Part shown: positions 11,440-19,418 of the stretch, one piece after another
Layout of the letters: the number at the start of each line of letters is the position of its first letter
Position numbering within the stretch: the first letter of the stretch is position 1
Origin: Lachnospiraceae bacterium
Lineage (GTDB): Bacteria > Bacillota > Clostridia > Lachnospirales > Lachnospiraceae
Direction: 5' to 3'
Length of the DNA stretch: 33,441 nucleotides
Assembly: GCA_017617545.1 (NCBI GenBank)
Contig: JAFZVZ010000013.1
Coordinates: 1-33,441, forward strand
The notes under the pieces: generated by a model
Database searches by the model: none
Seen by the model: only the letters and a program-made list of their open reading frames with translations
Told to the model about the DNA's origin: nothing
Program-made: the position numbers and the translations under genes

Positions 11440-11519
11440 TATTTTTCTGTGAGGACACGGATTTATCACCGATTTTCCACGTTCGCCGGAGGCGCCCCCT
11501 CGGATCCCTCAGAGCATCA

Positions 11520-11555
11520 AAAAAGAGCACCCTGCTTTCGCAAAATGCTCTTTTT
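11520..11555 (-). terminator. Terminator of the cell-envelope operon
   Basis: Perfect 10-bp arms AAAAAGAGCA and TGCTCTTTTT flank a 16-base loop. The A run on one side and T run on the other make it suitable in both directions. It lies 62 bases after the last gene of the operon (stop at 11617) and just upstream of the promoter for the next operon. Confidence 0.85.
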
Positions 11556-11616
11556 GTTTCTCATAAATTGTTTCGCGTTGCCTGACCACTCCCCCCTATC
11601 GGTTCGCCGGTCGCGG

Positions 11617-13020
11617 TCACTTCATCGCGTCCGCCGTCGCGTAGAAGAAATGTCCCTTTGTCTCCACGAGGATGCCGATCACCGCTGCCTCGGTCGTGCC
11701 CTCCGGCAGATACGCGGAGAAGCCGTTGTCGCCGCCCTCCTCCGTGCCGAGCAGCTCTCTCTCGTACGCGTTGAACGCCTCGTAAAATGCGTTGTGCCCG
11801 TCCTGATTGACTACTACGTAAACCTGATAGCTGTCTCCCAGCCATTCCGCGTCGATCCAGCCGTATGCGTGCAGCATGCCGTTCGACGCCTCAAACTCCA
11901 GGTGATCCGCCGCGTCGCTCATATCCACGGCATCGAGCATTTCCGGCTCAGCCACGGGCGCTTCCATAAGCGGCGCTTTCTCCACCAGGTTGATCAGGTT
12001 TCTCTCGACGATCTCCAGAATGACCGTGTCCGCGTTCAAGCGCTTCACCGAGCTCATGCGGTACGGCACCGCGCGCTGGAACTCCGCCTTCGAGAACCCT
12101 TCCGCAAAATACCGCCACGACGTGTTACCGAACGAATCGCGGAACATCAGCAGGTTGCCCTCTCCCGCGCCGCCGAGCGTCTCGATCACGAGAGCCTCGT
12201 CGAAGACCATGTCGCCCTTCGTTGTGAACGTGTATGTGATATTGGGGTACGTCTGCGCGTCATCGTCCGCGGCGTCCGGATAGATCATATTCGCCAGGTC
12301 GGCATCCCAGTCGTTCCGCTCCGTGAAGGTCACGTCCTCAAAGCGGTCGTGCTCCGTCGTCAGGCTGTCCAGGATCGTGCGGTACGCGAGCATCGCGCCC
12401 TCGTACGTCCAGTGCGAATCGCGCGGCTGGTACAGCACCTTGTCCTCCATGCGGAACGCCATCGTCAGATCGGCGTATTTTACGCCGTATTCGTACAGCG
12501 CCGTCGTCAGCGCCTCGAGGTTGCTCTTCCCCTTCGCCTGCGCGTAGCGCGCGGGCATGTTGTCCGCGTAGAGCGTATTCTTGTTGGGCGCAACCGTGAA
12601 CACGAACTCGGCGCCGTTGTCCCGGCAATACGTCTGCAGCATCGAGAGGATCTGCGCCGCGTTGTCGATGTTGCGGTCGCTCATCGTGCGCACGTGGCAG
12701 TAATCGTCCTCCGTGTCCGCGTAGTACAGCCAACCGTTCTTCCCAAGGATCACGGACGTCTCCGCGGATTCGCCGAAGAGCGTCTCCTTCATCGCCGTCT
12801 GCGCCTTCACGAGGAAGGACCGGCCGCCCATGTGGTCCGAGAACCACGCGTCAAACTGCGTAAAATACTGTGTATTCAGTTTTCCCTCTTCGACTGCCTT
12901 CGGAAACTCGGCGCTCTCGCGTTTCTCCGACGCAGACGTGTCCTGTGACATGCCTACGGTGATCAGCGGCACCAGGCATACCAGCAGGTAGATCACGATG
13001 AATGCCAGTTTCTTCTTCAT
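11617..13020 (-). CDS. DHHW/AlgJ-AlgX-like SGNH protein, partner of the MBOAT acyltransferase
   Basis: A 467-residue exported protein with an N-terminal signal anchor (residues 5-24). It carries the SDHMGGR motif at 61-67, the DSHW motif at 201-204 and a Ser-containing FRDSFGN block with Ser296, matching the Asp/His and Ser positions of the SGNH-like catalytic triad in AlgX and AlgJ. In those systems this protein moves an acetyl group, delivered across the membrane by an MBOAT protein, onto an extracellular polysaccharide. A C-terminal domain (about 355-467) without catalytic motifs may bind the acceptor. It starts 8 bases after the MBOAT stop codon and ends the operon. The acceptor (wall glycan, teichoic acid or capsule) cannot be told from sequence. 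Confidence 0.88.
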   Translation of the reverse strand: MKKKLAFIVIYLLVCLVPLITVGMSQDTSASEKRESAEFPKAVEEGKLNTQYFTQFDAWFSDHMGGRSFLVKAQTAMKETLFGESAETSVILGKNGWLYYADTEDDYCHVRTMSDRNIDNAAQILSMLQTYCRDNGAEFVFTVAPNKNTLYADNMPARYAQAKGKSNLEALTTALYEYGVKYADLTMAFRMEDKVLYQPRDSHWTYEGAMLAYRTILDSLTTEHDRFEDVTFTERNDWDADLANMIYPDAADDDAQTYPNITYTFTTKGDMVFDEALVIETLGGAGEGNLLMFRDSFGNTSWRYFAEGFSKAEFQRAVPYRMSSVKRLNADTVILEIVERNLINLVEKAPLMEAPVAEPEMLDAVDMSDAADHLEFEASNGMLHAYGWIDAEWLGDSYQVYVVVNQDGHNAFYEAFNAYERELLGTEEGGDNGFSAYLPEGTTEAAVIGILVETKGHFFYATADAMK

Positions 13021-13028
13021 ACAGTCTC

Positions 13029-14438
13029 CTAGAATCTAAAGTAAATGAACGGGTTATAACTCTCCGCCGCAAGCGCCATCAGCGCGAGCACGAGGATCGC
13101 CATCGAAAGCGCCATCGAAGCGAATTCACCGAGCGAGCGACCGCTGCTCTTCTCCTGAATGCGCAGGGCCATTTTCCGCGGAAGCGGTGTACAGCCGACA
13201 AATGCGCACAGCATGACGACGATCACGTACGGCGACAGGATTGCCGCTGTCTTCACCATCCCGAAGCCCGTGCCGGCCCCGAAGCCGAACATCGCGGCGA
13301 TCATGGTTCCCGCCTGCGACAGCGTGTCCGCGCGGAACACGACAAAGCCGATCGTCACCATGAGAAGCGCGTAGATGTGGTTAAATACCTTCCAGCCGCG
13401 GTGCACGGGGATCCACTCCTTCTCCTCGGCCATCTGCAGCGTGCCGTGGAACAGGCCCCACACGAGGAATGTCCAGTTCGCGCCGTGCCAGAAACCGGTG
13501 CAGAAGAACACGATGTACTTGTTGAGGATCGTGCGCGCCTTGCCCTTGCGGTTGCCGCCGAGCGGGATATACAGGTAATCGCGGAACCACGTCGACAGCG
13601 AGATGTGCCAGCGGCGCCAGAACTCGCGAATGCTGTCCGCGATGTACGGATAGTTAAAGTTCTCCTGAAAATGGAACCCGAACATCCGCCCAAGGCCGAT
13701 GGCCATGTCAGAGTAGCCCGAGAAGTCGAAATAGATCTGCATCAGGTACGCGATCGCCGCCACCCACGACGCCAGCAGGCCGATGTAGGACTTCGGCATG
13801 GCAAATACAGCGTCCGCGACGTACGCCATCGTGTTCGCGATCAGCACCTTCTTGCCGAGGCCGATGCTGAAGCGCGTGAGGCCGCTGAAGATGTCGTCCA
13901 CGGTCGCGTTGCGAGTGCGGATCTCATTTTCAATATCATGATACTTGACGATCGGTCCCGCGATCAGTTGCGGGAAGAACGAGACATAGAGAAGCAGGCG
14001 GAAGAAGTTTCGCTGTACCTCCGCCTTGCCGCGATACACGTCGATCACGTACGACAGTGCCTGGAATGTGTAAAATGAGATACCGATCGGCAGCGACAGC
14101 TTCGGCACCGGAAGCGCCGATTTCGCCGGCAGAACGCTGTTTAGGGACGTCACGAAGAAGCCCGCGTACTTGAACACGAACAACAGTCCGATGTTCACGA
14201 TCACGGCCATGGTCAGCACGCCCTTCTTGCGCTCCCCGGCCACACCGAGGCCGAACAGGTAGTTGAATATGACGGAAACAAGCAGCAGGATGACATAGAC
14301 AGGCTCCCCGTAAGCATAGAACAGTATGCTCGCGAGGATCAGCGCCGCGTTCCTTGCTCTGCCGTTCGGAAGAACCGCGTGCAGCAGGAACACGATCGGA
14401 AAGAAAATGCACAAAAATGTCACCGAGCTGAAAACCAT
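13029..14438 (-). CDS. MBOAT-family O-acyltransferase (AlgI/DltB type)
   Basis: A 469-residue polytopic membrane protein with about 11 hydrophobic segments. The family core is complete: FPQLIAGPIVKYHDI, YFDFSGYSDMAIGLG, FNYPY, REFWRRWHISLSTWFRDYLYIPLGGNRKG, and the catalytic His318 in FWHGANWTFLVWGLFHG. MBOAT enzymes of this type load an acyl group, normally acetyl from acetyl-CoA, and pass it through the membrane to an extracellular transferase; the gene at 11617-13020 is the obvious partner. The start is the ATG at 14438, with GGAGG at proper spacing. The TTG just before it is too near that site. The gene follows the transglutaminase gene by 18 bases. Confidence 0.95.
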   Translation of the reverse strand: MVFSSVTFLCIFFPIVFLLHAVLPNGRARNAALILASILFYAYGEPVYVILLLVSVIFNYLFGLGVAGERKKGVLTMAVIVNIGLLFVFKYAGFFVTSLNSVLPAKSALPVPKLSLPIGISFYTFQALSYVIDVYRGKAEVQRNFFRLLLYVSFFPQLIAGPIVKYHDIENEIRTRNATVDDIFSGLTRFSIGLGKKVLIANTMAYVADAVFAMPKSYIGLLASWVAAIAYLMQIYFDFSGYSDMAIGLGRMFGFHFQENFNYPYIADSIREFWRRWHISLSTWFRDYLYIPLGGNRKGKARTILNKYIVFFCTGFWHGANWTFLVWGLFHGTLQMAEEKEWIPVHRGWKVFNHIYALLMVTIGFVVFRADTLSQAGTMIAAMFGFGAGTGFGMVKTAAILSPYVIVVMLCAFVGCTPLPRKMALRIQEKSSGRSLGEFASMALSMAILVLALMALAAESYNPFIYFRF

Positions 14439-14456
14439 CAAAACCTCCGAATGCCT

Positions 14457-16691
14457 TTACGGCATCGTGTATCCGTAGTAGTACTCCGCGGTATAACCGG
14501 ACGATCCCTTCTTCGGGCCGTACCGCGAGTCATTGTAAGTGAACGTGTATTCCTTCAGTTTCTCCGTCGTCACCATGTAGACGTTAGAGCGCATCGCGTC
14601 GATGTGATACCATACGCCGTCGACCCTCACGATCGTCCACTGGTGCTCGGCATAAGTATGTCCGCCGCCCTTCAGCACGCGCGCTTCATATCCCGCCGCC
14701 TTGAGGATCTCGGTCATCAGTGCCGCGTAGTGCCAGCACGCGCCGCATCGCTTGTTGATCGCCTCTGCCGCGAGCGTCTTGGTGCTCTTGCTGCCGCTCG
14801 AGTAGTATGAGTAGTAGCCGACCTTGCGTCTCACCCAGTTGTAGAGATCCTTGATGTTCTTGCTCTTGATCTCGGAGTCGATCACGTTCTTCAGGTAATC
14901 TTCGAGATTGTCCTCGTTAATGGTACTGAACTTTTTCGTCGCCACACCGTTCGAGTCGATCGTGTACTTCTGTCCGCTGATCGTCATCTCGGTGCTCGTC
15001 ACGATCGTTCCGTCGGACTTCACGTAGCGGTTCTTGCCGCTGACGCGCTGCAGACCTTCCTTCGTGATGAGCGTGCCGCTGTCGCTGAACGCGTACAGCT
15101 TGCCGTCGATCTTCGTCACGCCCGTCGCGATCGTGCCGTCGGAGTAACAGTAGATCTTGCCGCTCGTCGTGTGCCAGCCCTCCGAGAGGAAGCCGCCGTC
15201 CTTGGCGAGGTAGTAGTATTTGCCGCCGATCTCAACGGTGCCCTGCTTCTGCACGCCGTCGGAGCCGAAGTAGTACTTCTTTCCGTCGATCGTCTTCCAC
15301 CCGGTCACGGCGCTGCCGTCCTCGTTGTAGTACGCGAGCTTGCCGTCCACGGTGTGCTTGCCGCCGCTGATGATACCGTTGCTGTCGAGGTAGTAGTATT
15401 TGTCGCCGATCTTCGTCACGCCGGTCTGCAGGAAGCCGCGCTTGTAGTACTGCTCCCCGAGCTCCGTCTTGATGTACCCGTCGAGGTACGCGCCGTCGTC
15501 GCGGAAGCGGTACTTCGTGCCGTCGAGTTCAACATCTCCGACGTACAGCCGTCCCGAATCGGAGAAGCAGTATCTCACGTCGCCGATCGTCTGCCAGCCG
15601 GTCATCAGCACGCCGTTCTCGTCGTAGTAATACCGGTTTCCGTCGCGCGTGATCCAGCCGCGCGCCAGCTGATAATTGTCCTCAAAATAATACCGCTTGC
15701 CGTCAATCTTCTGCTCTCCGGACAGCAGTCCGTCGTCCGAGCAGTAGTACGTGCCCGCGGGCTCCTCGATCCAGCCGTAGAGGAAGACATTGTCCTTGAG
15801 GTACCACGTTGTCCCCTCGATCTCGGCAGGCCCGTTGATGCGGTCACCATTTTCCGAAAAATAATACTCCTTGCCGTCGATCGTGATCCGCCCGAAGCTG
15901 AGCGATCCGTCCTCCTCGGACGCGTAATACAGACCGTCCTGCATGAGCACGAAGCCCTTCTGCAGGTAGCCGTTCCAGTCGAAGAAGTACTGCTTACCCT
16001 CTATCTCCTGCATGCCGGTGAACATCGCATTGTCCTCCGGCGAAAAATACCTCTGTCCCTCCGCGCAGTCGAGCCAGCCGTTCAGCACGCGCCCGTCCTC
16101 GGCGATCTGGTACACGCTGCCGCCCACCTCGCGGATGCCCGCTTCGACAAAGCCGTGCGAGTTGCGGTAGTAGAGCACGCCGTTCTCCGTGTAGAAGCCT
16201 CTCTTCAGCACGCCGTCGGTCTCGCAGAAGCAGTAATCCTCGCCGTTGATCTGCGTGACGCCCTTGAATATGCCGTCCACGGTGGAGTAGTAAACCCGGC
16301 CGTTCATCTCGGCGGGGCCCTCGATCAGATATCCGTCGCTGTCGAAGAGGTACATCACACCGTCGATCATCCGCGCACCGACCGCTCTCTCATCGTCCCG
16401 GAGGTAATATCTGCCGGCCTTCGAATCGTGCCAGCCATCCCGCACGCTCGCGCGGTAGGCCATGCCGATTCCCACCAGGAACAGAAGGCTGAGCACCAAA
16501 ATAACCGCGAGATGCCGCTGCCGGCTGCGCAGCTTTCTACGCAACCGAAGCCGCCGCTCGCGCGGGTCCGGCATGGGACGTACTTCCTCGGTGGAGGCTG
16601 CCGCAGGAGTATTTTCCTCGGCGTTTCCTTCGTCGGAAATCTCCTCCCGAAGTTCTTCGTCCCGATTCACTTGTCGCGAATCATGTTCCAT
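14457..16691 (-). CDS. Membrane-anchored protein with about twenty cell-wall-binding repeats and a C-terminal transglutaminase domain
   Basis: A 744-residue protein. Residues 1-60 are cytoplasmic, acidic then strongly basic (RRLRLRRKLRSRQRH), followed by one membrane helix (about 61-83). Residues about 95-570 are a long array of roughly 20-residue cell-wall-binding repeats of the type GWKTIDGKKYYFGSDG, which resemble choline-binding modules. Residues about 585-744 are a transglutaminase-like domain with the triad Cys652 (CGACWHYAALM), His683 (AEHQWTI) and Asp698 (YHIDAM). Such domains crosslink amines to glutamine side chains or act as proteases or peptide N-glycanases in other contexts. The ATG follows AGAGGA. 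The gene is third in the operon, 11 bases after the VanX-like gene, so action on peptidoglycan peptides or wall proteins is likely (inference). Confidence 0.92.
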   Translation of the reverse strand: MEHDSRQVNRDEELREEISDEGNAEENTPAAASTEEVRPMPDPRERRLRLRRKLRSRQRHLAVILVLSLLFLVGIGMAYRASVRDGWHDSKAGRYYLRDDERAVGARMIDGVMYLFDSDGYLIEGPAEMNGRVYYSTVDGIFKGVTQINGEDYCFCETDGVLKRGFYTENGVLYYRNSHGFVEAGIREVGGSVYQIAEDGRVLNGWLDCAEGQRYFSPEDNAMFTGMQEIEGKQYFFDWNGYLQKGFVLMQDGLYYASEEDGSLSFGRITIDGKEYYFSENGDRINGPAEIEGTTWYLKDNVFLYGWIEEPAGTYYCSDDGLLSGEQKIDGKRYYFEDNYQLARGWITRDGNRYYYDENGVLMTGWQTIGDVRYCFSDSGRLYVGDVELDGTKYRFRDDGAYLDGYIKTELGEQYYKRGFLQTGVTKIGDKYYYLDSNGIISGGKHTVDGKLAYYNEDGSAVTGWKTIDGKKYYFGSDGVQKQGTVEIGGKYYYLAKDGGFLSEGWHTTSGKIYCYSDGTIATGVTKIDGKLYAFSDSGTLITKEGLQRVSGKNRYVKSDGTIVTSTEMTISGQKYTIDSNGVATKKFSTINEDNLEDYLKNVIDSEIKSKNIKDLYNWVRRKVGYYSYYSSGSKSTKTLAAEAINKRCGACWHYAALMTEILKAAGYEARVLKGGGHTYAEHQWTIVRVDGVWYHIDAMRSNVYMVTTEKLKEYTFTYNDSRYGPKKGSSGYTAEYYYGYTMP

Positions 16692-16702
16692 CCGTTATCC
16701 TC

Positions 16703-18421
16703 TCAGATTTCGTAGTCCGCGAAAACATAACTCTGAATGCACGGAAAATCCTCAACGTTCTTGTTCAGCTCAAAATGCCACCATTCCTGCTTTCCGCGGA
16801 GCGGGATCAGGCCCGTCCCCTCGGTCATGATCGAGTACAGCTTGTTCGCCTCCTCGGTGTTGTAATCCATGTTGCCGCGGAAGTCGAGCGTATGCATTTT
16901 CGTCTGCATGACCGCCTCGTCCCCGAGCCGGTCGAGCGTGTCATACCTCTGGATCGTCAGGTCGAGCGCGATGCCCTTGTTGTGGTTGGAATCAACCGCG
17001 ATAAAGTTCGCCTCCGTGTAGGTCTTGTTCAGGAAACCGTTGGCCAGCGTCAGCTTCTTCTCGGTCGCGTTTCCGTCCGCGTCAAGCACGGGGATCTCCT
17101 CGCGGAAGTATCCGTACTCACGCATCGCCTTGTACACCGCCTTCGAGGTCGAATTCGGCCGGTAGGACTCGTAGATCAGCAGGCAGTAGCCTTCCGCGAG
17201 CGCGTTGCGCTGCGCCGTCAGCAGCTGGATCGCCACGTCGAAAACTGCCGGTGCCTGTTCCTTCGGTCCGTAGTTCGGGAGCGCTTCTCCCGTCACACCG
17301 CCGATGACATTGTAGCCGCCCGTGGCGAGCGATGTCGCCGCGTCCGCCACCCTGAGCGGGTCATACCGCGTCTCCTCCGCCGAATCCGTGTCGATCTGCT
17401 GCGCGTTGCCGCCGCAGGTGAAGATGGACGCGTACGCGTTGGTGCGGTTGTATTTTACGGAATACGGGTTGTCGTTGGGGAAGATCATGGCGAGGTCCAC
17501 CAGGAGCGCGTTGCCGAGCACCCAGCCTTCCTTCACGCCGCCTTCCATCGCGGCCTTCAATGTAACGTGTACCGCGTACCTCTTGTCCGGGAAGCTGTAC
17601 ACATACTGTCCGTTCTCGTCCGCGCTGATCGTCATCGGAGTTCCGCCGGGTATCAGGTCACACAGCGTTTCCGTGAGCTCCGCGCTTGTGTACATGACGC
17701 TGTCAAATTCCATCCAGCAGTTGACGCCGAGGCAGCCCTCCGGCCTCGTGTAGGTCACCTGCTTCGTCTCCTCGCCGACTCGCAGCGTTCCGCTCGCGTT
17801 ACAGAACGGATCGCCGTAGCCGTTGCCATCCGGTGTAAACCGGACGGTCTCCGAGATGTACACCTCACCGCTCTCGCGCTGTACGATGATCTCCGCGTCA
17901 TACTGGCGTCCCGCCGTAAGCGCGCCGATCCCGACCGCTGTCTCCGCGGTTTTGATCTCGTTCCATTCAGTATCCTCGGAAGCCTTGTACCGGAGCGTAT
18001 ACTCCATTCCCTCCGGCGCTCCCGCAAGCGTAAATGCCGCAGTATTCTTCGTCACATCCCCGATCGTCAGAACCGGTGTGATCGGTTCCGGCGTCGGTGT
18101 CGGCGTCGGAGTATCCGGCACCGCTTCCGTAGGCGTCGCTGTCAGCTGCGGCTCGATTTCCGTCTTGCCACCCGGCGTCTTGTTCGGATCTTCCGCCGGC
18201 TCCGTCGGTGTAGCCTCCGCAGGCTGCTGCGTCACCGTGGGCGTCGTCTTCCCGTCGTCCGGGTCGTTCAGAAGGTTCTTCGCTCCCTTGACAAGCATGA
18301 TGATCGCAAGCGTCAGCAGAGCGATGCCCGCGATGCTCACCAGCGTGTAGCGGAGAATTTTCTGCATACGCTTCTTGCGGCGCTGCTTATATCTCGTGTT
18401 GTTGTGTTTGATCTCTTTCAC
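16703..18421 (-). CDS. Membrane-anchored VanX-like D-Ala-D-Ala dipeptidase (peptidase M15)
   Basis: A 572-residue protein: a basic N-terminus, one membrane helix (about 24-45), a Pro/Thr stalk (about 52-116), a fibronectin-III-like domain (about 117-197), a linker with SH3-like features around EGWVLGNALLVDLAMIFP, and a C-terminal M15 domain (about 385-572). The M15 domain has Arg421 in YESYRP, zinc ligands His480 and Asp487 in SNHNKGIALDLTI, and Glu546 and ligand His549 in EWWHFEL. These match VanX (M15D), which cleaves D-Ala-D-Ala, although here the enzyme is outside the membrane, so its substrate is probably a peptidoglycan stem peptide (inference). Translation begins with GTG, preceded by GAGGG; the later ATG at 18367 lacks a ribosome binding site. 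Second gene of the operon. Confidence 0.9.
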   Translation of the reverse strand: MKEIKHNNTRYKQRRKKRMQKILRYTLVSIAGIALLTLAIIMLVKGAKNLLNDPDDGKTTPTVTQQPAEATPTEPAEDPNKTPGGKTEIEPQLTATPTEAVPDTPTPTPTPEPITPVLTIGDVTKNTAAFTLAGAPEGMEYTLRYKASEDTEWNEIKTAETAVGIGALTAGRQYDAEIIVQRESGEVYISETVRFTPDGNGYGDPFCNASGTLRVGEETKQVTYTRPEGCLGVNCWMEFDSVMYTSAELTETLCDLIPGGTPMTISADENGQYVYSFPDKRYAVHVTLKAAMEGGVKEGWVLGNALLVDLAMIFPNDNPYSVKYNRTNAYASIFTCGGNAQQIDTDSAEETRYDPLRVADAATSLATGGYNVIGGVTGEALPNYGPKEQAPAVFDVAIQLLTAQRNALAEGYCLLIYESYRPNSTSKAVYKAMREYGYFREEIPVLDADGNATEKKLTLANGFLNKTYTEANFIAVDSNHNKGIALDLTIQRYDTLDRLGDEAVMQTKMHTLDFRGNMDYNTEEANKLYSIMTEGTGLIPLRGKQEWWHFELNKNVEDFPCIQSYVFADYEI

Positions 18422-18490
18422 TGTAACTATCCCTCACACTGTCGTTTCGTGAATTGCCGGCCTCGCGCAAATGCCGGTTTGTCTCCGGTC

Positions 18491-19213
18491 CTACTGGAAA
18501 CTGGTGTCCACGATGACCATCTCGGACACGACATCGTCCTCCATGTAGAACAGAAGCTGCTTGCTCCCCGCGACGTACACAAGGCTCACGCCGGTGTCCT
18601 CCGTCGGTTCGCCGTACGCCGCGATCACATCGTCCGCCGTGGAACCGATCCCGATCCCGCGCGTTGTCTTCGCGCCGCCTCCGCTGAAGCTTGCCATGTA
18701 CACCAGCTGCTTTCCGTTCTGCGTGAGCGTGTCGATGTTGTAACCGTCATAGTAGTAGTTGATATCGTAGCCGCTCTCAAGACACGATTGTCCCTCGAGC
18801 TTCTCCACGATCTTGCCGGCCTCATTTTCCTTACCCGAAAAATCCATGTTCGGCTTTACGGTGACCCCGTTGACCGTCACGGCGCAATCGTCCTCGGTGT
18901 ACGTCCCTCTCTGATCCGGCGCCTGCGTTACCTCAGGGCTCGGCTCCGGCGTACCGGTAACGCTGCCCGTAGGCTGCGACACGGCGATCGTCGGTGTCGG
19001 TGTCGGAGACGGCGTGGGCGTCGCGGTGTACACCGGCTCATCGGTGTCCACGTACGCGCGGCTGTCACCGTCGCCCTCGCCTACGCCGAGTACAACACGC
19101 ATCGCGCCCTCATCGGACGGAACGCCGCGCTGCTCACCACAGGCGACAAGCACGAAAACGGCCGCCGCTGCCAGCATCGCCAATGTAATTGTGTGTTTCA
19201 CACTGTGTTTCAT
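18491..19213 (-). CDS. Lipoprotein with a C-terminal SmpA/BLIP-like domain, first gene of the envelope operon
   Basis: About 240 residues from the ATG at 19213. A lipoprotein signal peptide ends in the lipobox LVAC. A Thr/Pro-rich stalk (TATPTPSPTPTPT) leads to a globular C-terminal domain with VNGVTVKPNMDFS and GIGIGSTADDVIAAYGEP; the latter resembles the helix-turn segment of SmpA/OmlA and BLIP-like domains, a moderate match. A Cys and several Tyr residues lie in the YDINYYYDGYNID segment. I chose this start because the signal peptide fits it and AAAGAAGAG precedes it. It may bind a wall component or regulate the downstream M15 and transglutaminase enzymes (inference). The gene has its own promoter, and the VanX-like gene follows 69 bases later. 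Confidence 0.82.
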   Translation of the reverse strand: MKHSVKHTITLAMLAAAAVFVLVACGEQRGVPSDEGAMRVVLGVGEGDGDSRAYVDTDEPVYTATPTPSPTPTPTIAVSQPTGSVTGTPEPSPEVTQAPDQRGTYTEDDCAVTVNGVTVKPNMDFSGKENEAGKIVEKLEGQSCLESGYDINYYYDGYNIDTLTQNGKQLVYMASFSGGGAKTTRGIGIGSTADDVIAAYGEPTEDTGVSLVYVAGSKQLLFYMEDDVVSEMVIVDTSFQ

Positions 19214-19300: not shown

Positions 19301-19334
19301 ATTATATTGTACCATAAAACCCGGGCTCAAGCAA
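19301..19334 (-). promoter_or_regulatory. Promoter of the five-gene envelope operon
   Basis: TTGCTT (19329-19334) and TACAAT (19306-19311) are 17 bases apart; an overlapping alternative is TTGAGC with TATAAT (19301-19306) at 18 bases. Two copies of AGCCCGGG flank the promoter, one between -35 and -10 (about 19320) and one about 50 bases downstream (about 19270), a possible operator pair. The -35 region overlaps the T run of the preceding terminator. Confidence 0.75.
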
Positions 19335-19335
19335 T

Positions 19336-19363
19336 AAAAAAGCGGAGGCCGCCAAGCCTCCGC
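19336..19363 (-). terminator. Strong terminator of the GH8-nucleoside phosphorylase operon
   Basis: The perfect 8-bp stem GCGGAGGC/GCCTCCGC with a 6-base loop is followed on the minus strand by TTTTTTATT, a textbook intrinsic terminator 56 bases after the nucleoside phosphorylase stop. Confidence 0.92.
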
Positions 19364-19418
19364 CCTGTTGTTCTCCTGTGAGTTTTGTATATGGCGTTGT
19401 TTTCTTCCGTTTCACCGC

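Follow-up and report, generated by a model that had tools for sequence, protein, structure and literature searches.

The stretch of DNA examined here (the window) comprises 33,441 nucleotides of contig JAFZVZ010000013.1 from a Lachnospiraceae bacterium (GenBank assembly GCA_017617545.1, a 2.7-million base pair (Mb) draft genome, hereafter G000). On its minus strand we confirmed five open reading frames (ORFs) encoding, in order of transcription, a lipoprotein (A), an M15 peptidase (B), a repeat/transglutaminase-fold protein (C), an MBOAT acyltransferase (D) and a DHHW/AlgX-type SGNH O-acyltransferase (E) (Table 1). The intergenic gaps measure 69 (A–B), 11 (B–C), 15 (C–D) and 8 bases (D–E), and the coordinates bear out the tandem arrangement proposed in an original prediction made from this DNA. 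Comparison across genomes indicates that the gene set is held together far beyond chance, being kept across the genus and found again, differently ordered, outside it.

Table 1. Genes, domains and putative signals of the five-gene block, in window coordinates.
Feature	Position	Strand	Remarks
A, lipoprotein	18491..19213	-	lipobox, by eye; Thr/Pro linker and one extracytoplasmic domain
B, M15 peptidase	16703..18421	-	N-terminal hydrophobic anchor (by eye), Thr/Pro linker, Fn3, M15 VanX-like zinc-peptidase domain
C, repeat/transglutaminase-fold protein	14457..16691	-	anchor (by eye), long choline/glucan-binding-type repeats, C-terminal catalytic domain
C, transglutaminase-fold catalytic domain, residues 600-744	14457..14894	-	PF01841
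D, MBOAT acyltransferase	13029..14441	-	PF03062; C-terminus FIYFRF
E, DHHW/AlgX-type SGNH O-acyltransferase	11617..13020	-	PF16822 and PF14286; N-terminal hydrophobic anchor (by eye)
Intrinsic terminator hairpin behind E	11505..11575	-	-23.8 kcal/mol, z -4.6, 0/200 shuffles as stable
Candidate operon promoter, TTGAGC-18-TATAAT	19301..19330	-	10/12 consensus matches
Terminator-like hairpin between upstream gene and operon	19339..19366	-	12-pair stem, T tail

The original prediction had called the MBOAT–DHHW pair a known O-acetylation type, and domain content, motifs and structural matches make it well supported that D and E are an envelope acylation pair of known kind. D matches the MBOAT family (PF03062, E = 4e-33, 115.6 bits against a cut-off of 27), scores below the DltB equivalog cut-off (157.6 bits against 375) and ends in an FXYXXF acyl-shuttle motif; a FIYxxF C-terminus is present in all 45 MBOAT ORFs matching at E < 1e-60. 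Its listed start is TTG, and the next codon, ATG (14438), fits its 469-amino-acid relatives. E exceeds the cut-offs of both ALGX (PF16822, 4e-19) and DHHW (PF14286, 2e-6), and its residues D201, H203, S296 and R316 are invariant in 15 aligned rows. The tyrosine of the FXYXXF motif is acetylated in PatA (PMC12148441; this and the other papers cited are drawn on as excerpts), and the best solved match to the E profile, with which phmmer agrees, is Bacillus cereus PatB1 (structure 5v8d, 1.7e-20), a secondary-cell-wall-polysaccharide O-acetyltransferase (PMC9487903).

C carries choline-binding repeats (Choline_bind_3, PF19127, 4e-37, 126 bits, over cut-off) that also exceed the cut-off of an NCBIfam glucan-binding repeat; they are putatively of choline/glucan-binding type and need not bind choline. 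Its catalytic domain matches Transglut_core (PF01841, 3e-12, 47.4 bits against a cut-off of 23), as do all 14 members of its alignment (A4), and the Cys-His-Asp triad is invariant in the 14 genus rows. Counting the genus loci, 55 transglutaminase-fold ORFs lie in the neighbourhood of DHHW genes, and the triad is complete in 53 of them, with Cys in 54, His in 55 and Asp in 54. The best solved match is PeiW, a pseudomurein endoisopeptidase and transglutaminase-fold wall enzyme that is not known to have an acylation partner; the similarity is slight, at E = 8e-4 across 71 residues. As the best match, PeiW weakly favours wall-peptide cleavage over protein crosslinking, so that C need not be a crosslinker: the cell-wall-binding repeats and transglutaminase domain originally predicted are both there, and the crosslinking role is not favoured. 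The C-domain profile also matches N-hydroxyarylamine O-acetyltransferase, besides isopeptidase and N-glycanases, and the window's C itself gives a below-cut-off match to the N-acetyltransferase family PF00797 (E = 2e-4); chain 4dmo is among the solved matches of the domain, at E = 0.011. Given its N-terminal anchor, C is expected on the same membrane face as D and E.

B matches Peptidase_M15 (PF01427, 2e-10) and the VanX-type structure 1r44 (phmmer, 1.3e-6). R421, H480, D487, E546 and H549, assigned as its catalytic and zinc-binding residues with the help of the 1r44 alignment, are invariant in 15 aligned rows. With VanX/DdpX (M15D) B shares the SxHxxGxAxD and EWWH zinc-site motifs and the YRP arginine; it differs in its N-terminal anchor, linker and Fn3 domain (residues 111–200) and in a VanX equivalog score far below cut-off (38.1 bits against 320), so the predicted VanX-like M15 domain stands and membership of the VanX equivalog does not. 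M15 peptidases target D-Ala-D-Ala ends, which are found in peptidoglycan. Many other ORFs in genomes of the genus weakly match B solely in its anchor and Thr/Pro linker, which suggests a common anchoring style in the genus. A has no Pfam match; its lipobox, LVAC, was read by eye, the cysteine is nearly invariant, and the predicted fold of its domain resembles CAP-associated/DUF4309 (BLIP-like) domains.

The terminator behind E is strong, and a single operon promoter, as originally predicted, is plausible, the promoter scan overall being at chance level (6 found against 4.3 expected, standard deviation 2.1), with a weaker minus-strand promoter-like site within B (17338–17309). Terminator-like sites on both strands number 13 against 9.0 expected (standard deviation 3.5), not clearly above chance, and a search for an internal boundary found that both minus-strand terminator-like sites in the block fall inside D.

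Conservation was first assessed in 22 genomes of the genus, the window genome included; the 11 named relatives are uncultured Lachnospiraceae/Lachnoclostridium assemblies, six of them from ruminant forestomach or horse-faeces samples. All five genes are contiguous in 14 of the 22, as A-B-C-D-E in 13 and as D-E-C-B-A in one (G019), rather than scattered among relatives; in G012 gene A lacks its 5′ end because the contig stops there. In G017, B-A-D-E and a C-type domain lie on separate contigs, the latter contig starting inside a linker, and G020 has D-E alone on a 3.3-kilobase (kb) contig. No block ortholog was found in the remaining six, of which G003, G010 and G015 are 79–85% complete and G002, G006 and G007 96–100% complete; the MBOATs of G007 and G015 are all paralogous. 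By this census the block is all-or-none in the genus, except in the two genomes cut by contig ends. It lies in five chromosomal settings: near glmS/HTH in six genomes (HTH alone seen in G020, and about 4 kb off in G009), beside ispF, tex or cysS in seven, and once each beside an AMP-binding (G012), a SIR2 (G017) and an AAA gene (G019). The C–D gap stays at 11–57 bases across the 13 A-B-C-D-E genomes and so gives no sign of a split between the M15/transglutaminase half and the acetylation half.

These partners do not accompany every MBOAT–DHHW pair, a possibility contradicted by a second, paralogous pair in the window genome that has none of the three within 18 kb. Among 14 short paralog loci of the genus, each with about 1.5 kb of flanking sequence, a transglutaminase-fold ORF stands behind the SGNH gene in two. 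In both, L060 (G015) and L062 (G017), it lies directly behind the paralogous SGNH gene, so the transglutaminase-fold partner is not confined to this clade.

Beyond the genus, the E profile matches 49 of 348 Lachnospiraceae genomes at E ≤ 1e-50, and we examined 40 of the 48 E loci outside G000 (left out were G087, G173, G248, G258, G284, G330, G381 and G385). In 35 of these 40 outside-genus loci the same strand carries a transglutaminase-fold ORF no more than 6 kb away, against 0.6 expected, far more than chance co-occurrence would give. The expectation derives from PF01841 (274 matches in 48 genomes, on average 5.7 each, with 2.8-Mb genomes assumed) and the count from an iterated profile that is probably more sensitive; at four times the background rate the probability by chance would still be 5e-38. 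A PF01841 match adjoins the pair in at least 21 of the 48 genomes, counted by eye among the matches listed. An A-like lipoprotein was found near 16 of the 40 loci with an iterated profile; the A-domain profile gives 24 matches in 22 of 49 genomes, 14 of which adjoin the pair by our own count (one on the opposite strand), four of these from genomes that contributed rows to the profile (G000, G033, G084 and G282) and ten independent, and on this comparison A-type lipoproteins are enriched beside the pair. An M15 protein lies near six of the 40 loci (chance 2e-12), and all six also match the curated PF01427; the B profile matches 18 of the 348 genomes at 1e-12, and covers the greater part of B in just one other, G084. 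Gene content points to a widely shared core made up of C, D and E, which A often accompanies and to which B is an accessory: the joint machine of the original prediction is strongly supported as a five-gene unit, though not as one of five equal parts.

The same genes recur in other orders in more distant relatives, as D-E-A-C-B in G024, of another Lachnospiraceae genus, and as B-C-D-E-A in G656, of another family. In G084, again of another genus, an intact frame of 865 amino acids (L140:7400-9997, contig C74) fuses the SGNH domain (residues 91–222, by Pfam), seven stretches of choline-binding repeats and a Transglut_core domain (748–826), with the MBOAT gene upstream and the M15 and A genes downstream, giving the order D-(E.C)-B-A. 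The original prediction had named a transcription boundary between the M15/transglutaminase and acetylation parts as a finding that would refute it, and neither the short C–D gaps nor this frame, in which C and E are joined, gives any sign of one. The fusion speaks for C acting on the same substrate as E. Separately, in G017 a DHHW frame (L013:8425-10077) passes into a Thr/Pro linker close to where contig C35 stops, and the first stretch of contig C56 encodes another such linker followed by a transglutaminase-fold domain (L088:1-522); this is probably a second fusion split by assembly, which we left uncounted; the MBOAT of this genome (L013:7003-8408) lies in two overlapping frames, through a frameshift or a sequencing error.

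Neighbouring ORFs were clustered over 60 loci (the 40 above and 20 from the wider class), and five of the top 22 recurrent clusters listed were named. A GH25-type muramidase ORF lies within 8 kb of the pair in three loci (Pfam on one): that of L164 (5997-8174), with SH3 and Fn3 domains, stands between the MBOAT and DHHW genes, and L155 and L170 have related ORFs in the vicinity of the pair. Lipoproteins of two families also lie close to the DHHW gene, one with G5 and DUF348 domains in six loci (median gap 13 bases; Pfam on L157; L157:10471-11454, L151, L163, L166, L172 and L204) and one whose L149 member has no Pfam match in eight (median gap 16 bases; L149:10794-11684 and seven others).

We favour, with slightly better than even confidence, the reading that the block encodes an envelope O-acylation machine of PatA/PatB1-like type to which two wall-peptide enzymes, the cysteine enzyme C and the metalloenzyme B, are coupled. 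A cytoplasmic donor would supply D with an acyl group, probably an acetyl, for the tyrosine of its C-terminal FIYFRF peptide; the peptide would hand it to the catalytic serine of E outside the membrane, and E would transfer it to a wall-glycan hydroxyl. With its membrane anchor and its repeats extending into the wall, C would attack amide or isopeptide bonds in the same place through its Cys-His-Asp triad, B would trim D-Ala-ended stem peptides at the same site, and A would be an accessory lipoprotein with, perhaps, a regulatory or docking role. The sequences themselves show the gene set, its linkage, the conserved active-site residues, the shuttle motif and the fusion, whereas the donor, the acceptor, the direction of C's chemistry and the role of A are what we infer here. 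The M15 domain, the PeiW match, the GH25 muramidases and the G5/DUF348 lipoprotein lean towards peptidoglycan as the likeliest acceptor, in which case glycan strands would be acetylated while their peptides are edited, and the outcome may be a tuned sensitivity to lysozyme or autolysins.

Several observations weigh against this reading. Five of the 40 loci have no transglutaminase-fold neighbour (L158, L159, L161, L169, on a 3.6-kb contig, and L175), and B is absent from most. In the wider class, where the E profile matches 23 of 391 genomes at 1e-30, a transglutaminase-fold ORF accompanies just five of 20 new DHHW loci (an A-like protein 11 of them, and an M15 protein one on the same strand and two on the other), so that the association, at 35 of 40 within Lachnospiraceae, thins with distance. 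The WHG/His motif pattern of MBOATs is unmatched in two of 59 ORFs (L140 and L202), and a protein-glutamine transferase, an N-glycanase and an N-acetyltransferase-type enzyme score close behind PeiW as matches to the C domain. Of the other neighbour clusters, the one that recurs most often is that of an ABC-transporter ATPase (eight of 60 loci, median 5.4 kb off, Pfam on one), which could equally well point to polymer export. Relatives of E act on alginate, cellulose and secondary wall polysaccharide, so the acceptor is unreadable from sequence.

In another reading, which we regard as possible but doubtful, E would acylate a secondary wall glycopolymer; C would bind this polymer through its repeats and crosslink or process the surface proteins that it carries, and B would be a wall-trimming passenger. 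The PatB1 match of E argues for it, as do the choline/glucan-binding-type repeats, kept inside the G084 fusion, and the ABC-transporter ATPase recurring at a distance; M15 and GH25 nevertheless speak for peptidoglycan, repeats went undetected in many C homologues, and no polymer synthase or S-layer gene is among the five named clusters. We think it improbable that C belongs to the acyl-transfer chain itself, its cysteine taking the acyl group from E or passing acyl to amines of wall peptides or proteins: C is fused to E and its fold includes acyltransferases (the PF00797 and 4dmo matches above), yet the same profile matches peptidases and an N-glycanase about equally, and PatA/PatB is described without such a partner in the excerpt of PMC12148441. 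Mere co-localisation, with five unrelated envelope genes held together by expression or shared ancestry, is very improbable. All five are envelope proteins, a class often clustered, and in seven genomes the block has a housekeeping neighbour (ispF, tex or cysS); set against this are the reassembled orders and contexts, its presence in another family (L202), the domain fusion, the 35 of 40 loci against 0.6 expected, and the paralogous pair of the window genome standing without its partners. A bolder version of the coupled O-acylation machine, which we consider rather unlikely, would make a transglutaminase-fold cysteine enzyme the regular third component of a large MBOAT–SGNH class in Clostridia, a transfer or editing stage at the SGNH active site that joins glycan acylation and peptide-bond chemistry on one wall unit in one step, with the C–E fusion as its physical form.

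Among known systems, PatA1/PatB1 of Bacillus cereus is alike in its MBOAT–SGNH pairing and in the Ser, Asp, His and the invariant Arg after Ser; E differs in carrying DSHW instead of DHHW, no S-layer genes were noticed beside the pair here, and transglutaminase is unmentioned in the excerpt of the review PMC9487903. Gram-negative PatA/PatB, which O-acetylates peptidoglycan, shares the FXYXXF shuttle peptide at the MBOAT C-terminus (PMC12148441), whereas here the lineage is Gram-positive, extra wall-peptide enzymes are present and peptidoglycan is a putative acceptor. The clostridial cellulose locus ccsHI likewise pairs MBOAT and DHHW proteins (PMC7710045), although no cellulose synthase was noticed by the pair here, where no profile search for one was made. 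We found no open-access paper on transglutaminase–MBOAT–DHHW coupling, an absence that counts for little as subscription papers and preprints were mostly uncovered; within the same limit, none was found for DHHW with transglutaminase, and those for MBOAT with transglutaminase concern, by title, animals, plants or medicine only. The excerpt of PMC2824669 does not mention transglutaminase.

The original prediction correctly recognised the unit and was correct in part about what it means; neither outcome that it had named as refuting turned up, so far as sequence shows. The more general finding, as far as genome comparison can carry it, appears to be a transglutaminase-fold partner of MBOAT–DHHW pairs across Lachnospiraceae. 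MBOAT–SGNH pairs modify wall polymers and thereby affect lysozyme resistance, autolysis and surface-layer assembly, and Lachnospiraceae are a major gut and rumen family. In this family a clade of such pairs has a usual transglutaminase-fold companion, sometimes a D,D-peptidase and, in one case, a direct fusion. If the favoured reading is true, wall glycan acylation and peptide editing would be coupled in these bacteria, and surface enzymes so far annotated by domain alone would gain a function and defined partners.

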